This document shows positions 8,765-41,518 of a DNA stretch of 64,000 nt, one piece after another. Source of the DNA: Streptomyces sp. NBC_00271 (GTDB taxonomy: Bacteria > Actinomycetota > Actinomycetes > Streptomycetales > Streptomycetaceae); assembly GCF_036178845.1 (NCBI RefSeq), contig NZ_CP108070.1, positions 6,138,001 to 6,202,000 on the forward strand. Direction: 5' to 3'. Below the pieces are notes generated by a model. The model searched no databases. It worked only from the letters and a program-made list of their open reading frames with translations, and was not told where the DNA came from. Every line of letters begins with the position of its first letter. Position 1 is the stretch's first letter. The position numbers and the translations under genes were made by a program.

Positions 8765-9718
8765 ATGACCGCGTACGAGCCACCGGGCACCCCCGGCCCC
8801 GCCGCCCCGTACGACGCCGTCGTCCTCGCGGGCGGCGCCGCCCGCCGGCTCGGCGGAGCGGACAAGCCCGGTCTGCGCGTGGGCGGGCGCCCGCTGCTCG
8901 ACCGGGTGCTCGCCGCCTGCGCCACCGCCACCACCACGGTGGTCGTCGCCGCGCCGAGGGAGACCGCGCGCCCCGTGGAGTGGGCGCGCGAGGAGCCGCC
9001 CGGCGGGGGGCCGCTCGCCGCGCTCGACGCCGGCCTGCGGCACATTTCGGCGGAACACGTCGTGGTGCTCTCCGCCGACCTGCCGTTCCTGGATCAGGTG
9101 ACGGTACGGCGCCTGCTGGACGCCCTGCGGACGGGCGACGCCCCCCAGGGTCCGGCGCGACCCGACGGCGTGCTGCTCACCGACCCCGACGGCCGCGACC
9201 AGCCGCTCGTGGCCGCCTACCGCGCGGACGCCCTGCGCCGGGAGCTGGCCGCGCTCGCCGTCGCCCACGGTGGAGTCACCGGGCTGCCGCTGCGGCGGCT
9301 CACCGCCGCGCTCGACCTCACCCGCATCTCCGACCCCGTCGCGTCCTTCGACTGCGACACCTGGGACGACATCGCCGCCGCCCGGGCCCGCATCAGGGAG
9401 CATGGGAACGTGTTGGATGAATGGATTTCCGCAGTCAAGGACGAGCTGGGCATCGACCTGGACGTCGACACCGGTGGCCTGCTCGACGTGGCCCGCGACG
9501 CCGCGCACGGTGTGGCCCGGCCCGCGGCGCCGCTGACCACGTTCCTCGTGGGGTACGCCGCCGCACAGGCCGGGGGCGGCCCCGAGGCCGTCGCGGAGGC
9601 GTCCCGCAAGGCCACGGCGCTCGCGCTCCGCTGGGCGGCCGAGGACACCCCCGACGCCAAGCCGGCCTCGGACGCCAAGCCGACCGCCGAAGCCAAGCCG
9701 ACCCCCGACGCCGGATGA
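8765..9718 (+). CDS. MobA-like molybdenum cofactor nucleotidyltransferase fused to a DUF6457-type domain
   Basis: The N-terminal part (about 15-210) is a MobA-type nucleotidyltransferase that would join GMP (or CMP) to molybdopterin: LAGGAARRLGGADKP (21-35) is the nucleotide-binding signature, and SADLPFLD supplies the metal-binding Asp. Residues about 218-290 form a small helical domain (DEWISAVKDELGIDLDVD) seen fused to or beside MobA in actinobacteria. The tail is a short imperfect repeat of DAKP and EAKP units. The start at 8765 follows GGGGG rather closely. Its stop overlaps the moeA start as ATGA, confirming a two-gene cofactor operon. MobA versus MocA specificity cannot be told here. 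Confidence 0.8.
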   Translation: MTAYEPPGTPGPAAPYDAVVLAGGAARRLGGADKPGLRVGGRPLLDRVLAACATATTTVVVAAPRETARPVEWAREEPPGGGPLAALDAGLRHISAEHVVVLSADLPFLDQVTVRRLLDALRTGDAPQGPARPDGVLLTDPDGRDQPLVAAYRADALRRELAALAVAHGGVTGLPLRRLTAALDLTRISDPVASFDCDTWDDIAAARARIREHGNVLDEWISAVKDELGIDLDVDTGGLLDVARDAAHGVARPAAPLTTFLVGYAAAQAGGGPEAVAEASRKATALALRWAAEDTPDAKPASDAKPTAEAKPTPDAG

Positions 9719-11109
9719 ACGCGCCCCGCGCCCGGCCCCTCGGTCAGGACGCCGACGACCTCGACGTGGAGGAGGCCCTGGCCTTGGTCAAGGACCCCCG
9801 AGGCACGTCCGGCCCCCGGCACGGCCACGGCACCCCCGCTGTTCCCTCGCCCACGTCGGAGGGCGAGAGCCGCACCCAAGCCCCCGACAGCGCCAAGGGC
9901 AAGGGCGACGGGCGCAGGGCCACCCCCTGGCCCCAGGCCCGTACGACCGCCGAGCGGGCCGCCCGTTCCGTCCCGCGGCGCGCCCCCGTCTCCGTGTCCC
10001 TGGACGCGGCCCTCGGTCTGGTCCTCGCCGCCCCGCTCGCCGCGCTCACCGACCTCCCCTCCTTCGACACCTCCGCGATGGACGGCTACGCGGTCGCCGG
10101 ACCCGGCCCCTGGGACCTCCGCGAGGAGCGGGTACTCGCGGGCCACACGAAGCCGGAGCCGCTCATCGACGGCGAGGCGGTGCGGATCGCCACCGGTGCG
10201 CGCATCCCGCAGGACGCCACCGCCGTGCTGCGCAGCGAGCACGGGCGCCTCGACGACAAGGGGCGGCTGCACGCCACCCTGGAGGCCGTGCACGGGCAGG
10301 ACATCCGGCCCCGTGGCCAGGAATGCCGCAGCGGCGACCAACTCCTGCCGGCCGGCGCCCTGGTCACCCCCGCCGTGCTGGGCCTCGCCGCGGCCGCCGG
10401 ATACGACACCCTCACCGTGATCCCCCGCCCCCGTGCCGAAGTCCTCGTCCTCGGCGACGAACTGCTCACCGAGGGGCTTCCCCAGGAGGGCCTGATCCGG
10501 GACGCGCTCGGCCCGATGCTGCCGCCCTGGCTGCGCTCGCTCGGTGCCGAGGTCCTCGCGGTACGCAGGCTGGGCGACGACGCCAAGGCCCTGCACAAGG
10601 CGATCACCCGCTCCGAAGCCGACCTGATCGTCACGACCGGGGGCACCGCCTCGGGCCCCGTCGACCACGTCCACCCCACCCTGAGCCGCATCGGTGCCCA
10701 ACTCCTCGTGGACGGCGTCGAGGTCCGCCCGGGTCACCCCATGGTCCTGGCCCGCACCAAGGAGAACCAGCACCTCGTCGGCCTGCCCGGCAACCCCTTG
10801 GCGGCCGTCTCCGGCCTGCTGACGCTCGCGGAGCCCCTCCTGCGCGTCCTGGCAGGTAGGGCGGCCCCGGAGCCGTACACGCTGCCCCTCGGGGACGCGG
10901 TCCACGGGCACCCGTACGACACCCGGCTCATCCCCGTCGTGGTGCGTGCCGACCGGGCCATGCCGCTGCACTACAACGGTCCGGCCATGCTGCGGGGCAT
11001 CGCGGCCGCCGACGCCCTCGCGGTCGTACCACCCGGCGGCGCCCGTCCGGGGCAGGAGCTGGAACTCCTCGATCTACCCTGGGCGTTGGTGGATATGGGG
11101 AATGCCTGA
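9715..11109 (+). CDS. moeA: Molybdopterin molybdenumtransferase MoeA
   Basis: Inserts molybdate into adenylylated molybdopterin. The 464-residue protein carries the family marks SAMDGYAV, IATGARIPQDATAV, LGDEL, TTGGTASGPVDHV and GLPGNPLAAVSG, and the C-terminal beta-barrel domain IV. Compared with typical MoeA of about 400-420 residues it has an extra low-complexity stretch of roughly 50 residues near the N-terminus (about 25-75, rich in Gly, Pro, Ser and charged residues), likely disordered. It is translationally coupled to the mobA-like gene by an ATGA overlap. Confidence 0.88.
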   Translation: MNAPRARPLGQDADDLDVEEALALVKDPRGTSGPRHGHGTPAVPSPTSEGESRTQAPDSAKGKGDGRRATPWPQARTTAERAARSVPRRAPVSVSLDAALGLVLAAPLAALTDLPSFDTSAMDGYAVAGPGPWDLREERVLAGHTKPEPLIDGEAVRIATGARIPQDATAVLRSEHGRLDDKGRLHATLEAVHGQDIRPRGQECRSGDQLLPAGALVTPAVLGLAAAAGYDTLTVIPRPRAEVLVLGDELLTEGLPQEGLIRDALGPMLPPWLRSLGAEVLAVRRLGDDAKALHKAITRSEADLIVTTGGTASGPVDHVHPTLSRIGAQLLVDGVEVRPGHPMVLARTKENQHLVGLPGNPLAAVSGLLTLAEPLLRVLAGRAAPEPYTLPLGDAVHGHPYDTRLIPVVVRADRAMPLHYNGPAMLRGIAAADALAVVPPGGARPGQELELLDLPWALVDMGNA

Positions 11110-11153
11110 GATGAGTGGGGGCATGAACCGGACGGTGAGTCGGATCGGGGAGT

Positions 11154-11167
11154 GTTTCACGTGAAAC
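11154..11167. promoter_or_regulatory. parS centromere site (ParB binding)
   Basis: A perfect 14-bp palindrome GTTTCACGTGAAAC, identical to the Streptomyces parS consensus. ParB loads there to organise the origin region during sporulation segregation. It straddles the translation start of the potassium channel gene: the right half provides the GTG start and AAA second codon. A second perfect copy is at 41505. Confidence 0.9.
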
Positions 11168-12258
11168 TGCCGGGCCATGATGCGATCGCCCGCCAAGCGG
11201 ACGAGCATCTCGTGACCCGCCGGGTGAAACTCCCGAGAAAAGTCGTGGAACGCCCCATCCGCCAGGTCGTCAAACGCCTGGCGATGGCCTTGTTCTTGCT
11301 CGCCGTGACCGCCTTCATCGTCTGGGTCGACCGCGACGGCTACCACGACAACGCGGGTGACGGCGTCGACTTCCTCGACTCCCTCTACTACGCGACCGTC
11401 ACTCTCTCGACCACCGGATACGGCGACATCACCCCGGTCAGCGACGCCGCCCGGCTCACCAACATCTTCGTCATCACGCCGCTGCGCGTGCTGTTCCTGA
11501 TCATCCTGGTCGGCACCACGCTCGAGGTCCTCACGGAACGCACCCGCGAGGAGTGGCGATTCAACCGCTGGAGGGCGGCTTTGCGCGACCACACCGTCGT
11601 TGTCGGGTTCGGGACCAAGGGGCGGTCGGCGGTGCAGACCGTCTGTGCGACCGGGCTGAAGAAGGAGCAGGTCGTGGTCGTCGACCCCAGTGCCCAGGCG
11701 GTCGACGCGGCGACGGCCGAGGGGTACGCCGGGGTCATAGGGGACGCGACGCGCAGCGATGTGCTGATGGGGGCCGAGGTCCACAAGGCGCGGCAGATCA
11801 TCATCGCGACCCAGCGCGACGACACGGCCGTGCTGGTCACGTTGACCGCACGTCAGCTCAACCGGCAGGCAAAGATCGTCGCCGCGGTGCGCGAGGAGGA
11901 GAACGCTCCGCTGCTCAAGCAGTCGGGTGCCGACGCCGTCATCACCAGTGCCAGCGCGGCCGGACGGCTCCTCGGGCTCTCCGTGCTCAGCCCCAGCGCC
12001 GGCATGGTCATGGAAGACCTCATCCAGCAGGGCAGCGGGCTCGACATCGTGGAACGGCCGGTCGTGAAGGCCGAGGTGGGCAAGGGCGTACGCGAGACGG
12101 ACGACCTGGTGGTCAGCGTCGTACGGGGGCATCGCGTGCTCGGCTACGACGATCCGGCCATCGGGAAGCTCCAGTTGACCGACCGGCTCATCACCATCGT
12201 GCGGGTCACGCCCGGCACCCGGGTGGCACCGCACAGCCGACCGCTGCCCCAGGACTGA
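11161..12258 (+). CDS. Ion channel with RCK (TrkA-N) domain, probable potassium channel
   Basis: A 365-residue membrane protein with two transmembrane helices (about 40-56 and 101-121) flanking a pore loop with the potassium selectivity sequence TTGYGD (84-89). A cytosolic RCK/TrkA-N domain follows (VVVGFGTKGRSAVQTV from about 146, a nucleotide-binding Rossmann motif), then a TrkA-C-like domain, as in MthK-type channels. The GTG at 11161 is chosen because GGGGAG (11147-11152) is 8 bases upstream; the GTG at 11152 overlaps that site. The start codon lies within parS, so ParB binding could impede early transcription. That consequence is inferred. Confidence 0.85.
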   Translation: MKLPGHDAIARQADEHLVTRRVKLPRKVVERPIRQVVKRLAMALFLLAVTAFIVWVDRDGYHDNAGDGVDFLDSLYYATVTLSTTGYGDITPVSDAARLTNIFVITPLRVLFLIILVGTTLEVLTERTREEWRFNRWRAALRDHTVVVGFGTKGRSAVQTVCATGLKKEQVVVVDPSAQAVDAATAEGYAGVIGDATRSDVLMGAEVHKARQIIIATQRDDTAVLVTLTARQLNRQAKIVAAVREEENAPLLKQSGADAVITSASAAGRLLGLSVLSPSAGMVMEDLIQQGSGLDIVERPVVKAEVGKGVRETDDLVVSVVRGHRVLGYDDPAIGKLQLTDRLITIVRVTPGTRVAPHSRPLPQD

Positions 12259-41504: not shown

Positions 41505-41518
41505 GTTTCACGTGAAAC
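41505..41518. promoter_or_regulatory. parS centromere site (ParB binding), second copy
   Basis: A perfect GTTTCACGTGAAAC palindrome, the Streptomyces parS consensus, in the 173-bp divergent gap 54 bases upstream of the aspS start. It is a second high-affinity site about 30 kb from that at 11154. Confidence 0.92.

Follow-up and report, generated by a model that had tools for sequence, protein, structure and literature searches.

The start region of a predicted potassium channel gene (kch) in Streptomyces sp. NBC_00271 is very probably also a genuine parS site of the oriC-proximal cluster, which would have arisen on a start of the type GTG-Lys. As far as sequence comparison tells, the main point beyond an earlier sequence-only reading is that a large part of the genus keeps the exact register of site and start codon, and that this register recurs at other genes. 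In our judgement, it is a segregation site first and a start codon second. The window, that is the whole stretch of 64,000 nucleotides analyzed here, corresponds to positions 6138001-6202000 of an 11.9 Mb chromosomal contig and contains the following features.

9715..11109, plus strand: MoeA-like gene (molybdopterin molybdotransferase family), upstream of kch
11147..11152, plus strand: Shine-Dalgarno-like element GGGGAG, from sequence, 8 nt upstream of the GTG at 11161
11154..11167, no strand: parS, perfect palindrome GTTTCACGTGAAAC, from sequence match, with the register kept in relatives
11161..12258, plus strand: kch, predicted two-transmembrane-type potassium channel with TrkA_N, 365 aa, from ORF and domains
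41505..41518, no strand: second parS copy, also perfect, 123 kb from dnaA and flanked by divergently oriented predicted genes

The sequence-only reading had claimed a full match to the Streptomyces parS consensus at 11154-11167, and the 14-mer indeed has no mismatch. Its claim that the site covers the GTG start and the second codon of a potassium channel gene also holds, and the 365-aa product of this gene carries Ion_trans_2 and TrkA_N domains (Pfam). No NCBIfam model attains its cut-off for this product. The GTG (11161-11163) begins exactly in the middle of the palindrome and is followed by AAA (11164-11166) as codon 2. The left half-site GTTTCAC makes up most of the spacer between the Shine-Dalgarno-like element and the start, and the right half-site GTGAAAC consists of the start codon, the Lys codon 2 and the first base of codon 3. 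With GGGGAG, an 8-nt spacer and an ORF with Pfam domains, the elements of translation initiation are present. A scan for promoters and terminators between 10800 and 11400 found none, using a sigma-70-type consensus only, which is little informative for Streptomyces. At up to three mismatches the window contains two parS hits, both perfect. As a bare count this is not unusual; shuffled sequences gave a mean of 0.93 hits, and 24 of 100 had at least two.

The whole genome contains 16 perfect parS copies, nine with one mismatch and one with two, compared with five hits at up to two mismatches, none of them perfect, for a reversed control pattern. All 16 perfect sites are located between 5.933 and 6.180 Mb in a cluster spanning 247 kb, and a strong DnaA match is found at 6056270 (6.056 Mb). 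Mapped on the full genome, the kch-start site lies 93 kb from dnaA and within the ordinary cluster; the view that it stands apart from oriC as an outlier was therefore rejected. The contrast drawn in the sequence-only reading between sites close to oriC and a site in a gene start also fails, since this site is both. By position and sequence it is an ordinary member of the cluster; its register is not ordinary. A ParB-family protein (TIGR00180, 179.6 bits, cut-off 58.45) is encoded next to oriC, beside a ParA-like ORF that carries KGGVGKTTT. In 61 evenly drawn Streptomyces genomes, including this one, perfect parS is present throughout with 6 to 36 copies each, and the reversed control pattern has no perfect copy in any of them. 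One site with a single mismatch, GTTTCACTTGAAAC, stands alone at G000:C1:8929379-8929392, nearly 3 Mb off the cluster.

The parS cluster of S. coelicolor was reportedly the subject of work by Jakimowicz et al. in 2002. The chromosomal clusters of S. venezuelae and S. coelicolor are formed by a 14-bp palindrome of the same type as here. In the consulted parts of the literature, 16 palindromic parS sites within about 200 kb near oriC are given for S. venezuelae, compared with 16 perfect sites over 247 kb here, and 23 central sites plus one near the chromosome end for S. coelicolor (PMC4852455). ChIP-seq in S. venezuelae located ParB at 16 parS sites and one additional site, according to the consulted part of that study (PMC12511625). 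Within the portions consulted, the published accounts of Streptomyces parS describe no site as a start or stop codon.

For kch, parS is found at exactly -7 from the GTG in 80 of 80 named loci, which are the best 80 of 225 relatives, picked by similarity and thus biased to near relatives; 79 of these sites are perfect and one (L084) has a single mismatch. A protein search of the 61 evenly drawn genomes gave 60 kch loci, of which 42 have a perfect parS with an in-frame GTG start; the other 18 do not. The aligned -7 position is kept in 41 of the 42, and the last one (L130) has a different, longer N-terminus which still begins inside parS. In the one genome where the protein search gave no kch locus (G025), a matching junction is found by a degenerate pattern of parS followed by the kch N-terminus. 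This pattern occurs in 277 of 393 Streptomyces genomes, an approximate count that misses variants such as G002 and L130 and includes at least one match, in G214, that is apparently not kch. In other genera of the family the register was seen in none of the 22 genomes with examined loci (51 drawn). Because it is absent from 18 of 60 kch loci, the register is, judged by these loci, not essential, and clades without the parS start still keep kch and cydCD.

Among 76 representatives below 90% DNA identity, the majority base reaches a mean frequency of 0.999 in the 14 parS columns, compared with 0.645 in the 53 columns upstream. Downstream the mean is 0.668 for third codon positions and 0.894 for first and second positions. 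Codon 2 is AAA in 75 of the 76 representatives, L084 being the exception; among Lys codons AAA accounts for 88 of 838 in the kch bodies and for 128 of 2817 in the oriC region of the genome.

Some loci carry arrays of parS, with four copies within 127 nt that lead up to and include the kch start (L065, L115), five where kch ends or directly behind it (L170) and four before and at the cydCD start (L253). It seems from these loci that parS multiplies at gene junctions. In a distant Streptomyces clade, parS coincides with the kch end or follows it closely (locus L317 of G012, as well as L169, L170 and, with one mismatch, L172), and at L317 (G012:C1:4564497) it even contains the stop codon of kch. 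Nearby on the opposite strand, G012 has another stretch with 78% identity to kch residues 138-361.

Two further genes of the cluster have putative starts inside a parS site.

L022:3-716 (G000:C1:5987213-5990716), minus strand: cydCD, with its start in parS at the -7 register, from sequence comparison
G000:C1:6049823-6051061, minus strand: long parA ORF beginning inside parS, 55 residues longer than from the conserved-Met start

CydDC is an exporter which is needed for cytochrome bd. The assignment of cydCD is based on an NCBIfam CydD score of 277.9 bits for a 238-aa fragment, where the cut-off of 435 applies to the whole protein. The -7 register is present at cydCD in 53 of the 61 Streptomyces genomes and, by pattern, in 348 of 393. 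In the eight cydCD genes without it, the codon after the ATG or GTG start is AAG (7) or AGG (1), never AAA. Outside Streptomyces, the 20 best-scoring loci from the 51 genomes of the family draw were examined. All nine examined genomes of one genus (g7) show the register, four with a perfect site and five with GTTCCAC as the left half; it was found in none of the 11 other genomes.

At parA, a GTG at the parS centre opens the long ORF in five of five genomes inspected and in 58 of 61 by pattern. The stretch before the conserved Met comprises 51-64 residues. It is probably translated, because its length differs by whole codons and changes at the third codon position dominate (82, 91 and 185 differences at the first, second and third positions in 544 codon pairs); conservation of the reading frame is the sole evidence here. 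The frame is open further upstream of the putative start, and no good Shine-Dalgarno sequence is visible. A second parS inside parA keeps the frame as VSRET in five of five genomes. The parA start is probably a further site in the same register as kch.

The position of the 16 perfect sites of this genome (G000) relative to flanking orthologs was compared in four further genomes (G004, G008, G009 and G012); for two sites, the three flanking genes tested had no ortholog in the fetched stretches. The second parS of the window has a counterpart in G012 only. Other intergenic sites mostly stay at the same gene junction, yet their distance from the flanking genes shifts by tens of bases, for example from 15 nt behind a gene end in G000 to 25, 19, 12 and 2 nt elsewhere, or from -216 relative to a start to -196, -175, -168 and -188. 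A lock at -7 is seen only at cydCD (5/5), parA (5/5) and kch (3/5). Such a difference between lock and drift is what bases shared with a start codon or a coding frame would produce. By chance, 0.066 sites in this register are expected under the stricter null model (P for at least two, 0.002) and 0.013 under the other (0.00009), in a post hoc test which uses crude gene calls, with the kch and parA starts misplaced, and a kch start added by hand. Elsewhere in the analysis, both starts were placed by hand and from relatives.

The upstream side of the kch site involves a second coding sequence. In the window, the stop codon TGA of the MoeA-like gene is located at 11107-11109, 51 nt before kch, and a GTGA overlap of stop and start is lacking. 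Most relatives differ from this. Among the 125 non-redundant loci with a parS start, the moeA-like stop, counted from gene ends placed by tblastn, is the TGA inside the start parS in 99, with GTGA common to stop and kch start. In 14 loci the stop lies in a second, upstream parS copy. It falls outside any parS in 11, among them the window, L033 as a near relative of it, and L067, where the moeA frame reads on beyond the kch start; no moeA was found in the remaining one. The even draw has the GTGA overlap inside the start parS in 36 of 42 loci. The frame is open for 100 codons before the TGA in 41 of 42, a crude measure which by-chance open frames also pass.

At some junctions parS was probably duplicated, with the upstream copy keeping the moeA stop and the downstream copy the kch start. 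By eye, the moeA end of L034, L035 and L114 resembles a decayed upstream copy, and in the window this decay may have gone one step further. Four-base overlaps of stop and start, GTGA or ATGA, are a general feature of bacterial operons. The GTGA shared by the moeA stop and the kch start in most relatives with a parS start is like these overlaps; unlike a plain operon overlap, it is embedded in a centromere site, and the window itself is without it. All NCBIfam hits of the MoeA-like protein are under their cut-offs. Among them, the model for Glp, a divisome protein, matches the protein from 9715-11109 with 180 bits, where 475 is the cut-off.

The origin of the kch site was addressed by two protein trees. 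In a quick tree, built from the 86 kch rows of the even draws with the first 24 residues dropped, the parS start needs two changes, and a parS-less clade (8 rows) and two parS groups are left as a three-way polytomy. For a careful tree, 59 of the 86 rows were selected by hand (45 with parS, L155, 8 parS-less, 5 outgroup). Here a branch with 92/84 support, below the starred threshold, sets the parS rows together with L155 apart from the others. With the parS-less outgroups, this tree reads as one gain within Streptomyces and one loss, in G009 (L155). An older gain followed by loss in the parS-less clade is possible and would cost one extra change. At the kch start of G009 parS is gone; upstream copies remain, and the moeA stop still lies in one of them. 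Because the start lost its parS while the upstream copies stayed, the two functions can apparently be separated.

The nearest parS-less clade has GTG followed by AAG in most members. After GC-rich spacers, L157-L161 read GTGAAGCT and L156 reads GTGATCCT. The GTGA overlap with moeA is present here without parS in L156 and L158-L161 and absent in L162 and L163; in L157 moeA was not found. Since this clade reads GTGAAGC, the right half-site GTGAAAC would be one synonymous change away. In the simplest scenario, the site would have a single origin within Streptomyces, at a moeA/kch junction that read ...GTGAAGC... and in which GTGA already overlapped stop and start. Such a junction would have lacked only one base of the right half-site, and the other changes would have been cheap for coding, with those of the left half-site falling in the spacer between Shine-Dalgarno and start and in the last moeA codons. 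Afterwards, ParB binding would fix all 14 bases and translation would fix the GTG, so that the site could not slide like other parS sites. Its main job would be the loading of ParB-CTP for segregation, and selection for segregation would then underlie the conservation.

The shared bases might also serve gene regulation, with ParB at the site or spreading from it controlling kch, cydCD and parA by blocking initiating or passing polymerase, so that the channel level follows segrosome occupancy in sporulation. The position locked over three likely start codons (kch, cydCD, parA) fits this idea. In the consulted part of the S. venezuelae study, ParB extends up to 2.5-3 kb from parS (PMC12511625), and at this spread ParB at the kch parS would cover all of kch. 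The consulted part of a further account (PMC7022226) states that ParB of Pseudomonas aeruginosa represses the genes adjoining parS3 and parS4, and that in Streptococcus pneumoniae the loss of one parS induces comCDE, 5 kb away. The P. aeruginosa sites, upstream of PA0011 and PA0013, are like the kch site in lying beside gene starts; they repress through ParB but are described there as intergenic and not as a coding start (PMC7022226). However, the same source also reports that loss of Spo0J in Bacillus subtilis leaves parS-adjacent genes unaltered and that in Vibrio cholerae just three genes inside the ParB zone changed (PMC7022226). The low cost of the shared bases for coding would account for the lock without regulation, and kch and cydCD are retained where the parS start is missing. 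A regulatory role is possible, though rather unlikely.

Alternatively, the palindrome could belong to the 5' leader only, with kch starting at the GTG at 11152 or downstream, which would make the overlap an annotation artefact. The GTG at 11152 is in frame with kch, and the equivalent codon is GTG in 71 and ATG in 7 of the best 80 of 225 named loci, the ATG variants taking the form GGAGGATG; a crude gene caller set the start downstream. On the other hand, the Shine-Dalgarno-like element overlaps this GTG, and two of the 80 named relatives (L056 and L089) have GCG in its place. The parS-less clade L156-L161 has a start at the equivalent of 11161 and no start codon in place of 11152, and the codons from VKLPGH onward are largely conserved in relatives. 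We consider a start elsewhere to be very unlikely; most likely, GTG 11161-11163 is codon 1 of kch.

That the 14-mer is a chance match, the site of another palindrome-binding factor or an RNA hairpin is hardly credible: the oriC cluster contains 15 more perfect sites of identical sequence and all 14 bases are conserved, including the third base of codon 2, and although the predicted fold shows a 5-bp hairpin with the start codon near the loop, shuffled versions of the local RNA fold just as well (z 1.32; 184 of 200 at least as well), for which reason a hairpin controlling the start was rejected as main account.

The preferred reading is thus an oriC-proximal parS doubling as the kch start region, in which a centromere site and a likely protein-coding start use identical bases across many species. 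It suggests a route for the birth of parS in gene-dense chromosomes of high GC content, where a GTG-Lys start is nearly a half-site already. More speculatively, and with considerable doubt on our side, the fixed subset of parS sites could form a control layer, in which 14 bases nucleate ParB and initiate translation of the channel, the CydDC exporter and ParA; the register occurs in a large part of the genus and, in the case of cydCD, in a second genus as well. If this were true, the assembly of the segrosome would exert feedback on the physiology of the membrane as well as on its own motor. A change of codon 2 from AAA to AAG alters parS and leaves the protein the same, which offers a clean way to probe the effect of ParB on neighbouring genes, and the natural clades with and without the site can serve as controls for such effects. 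For Streptomyces in general, start-codon annotation and parS maps are best read jointly, with parA as a case in point.
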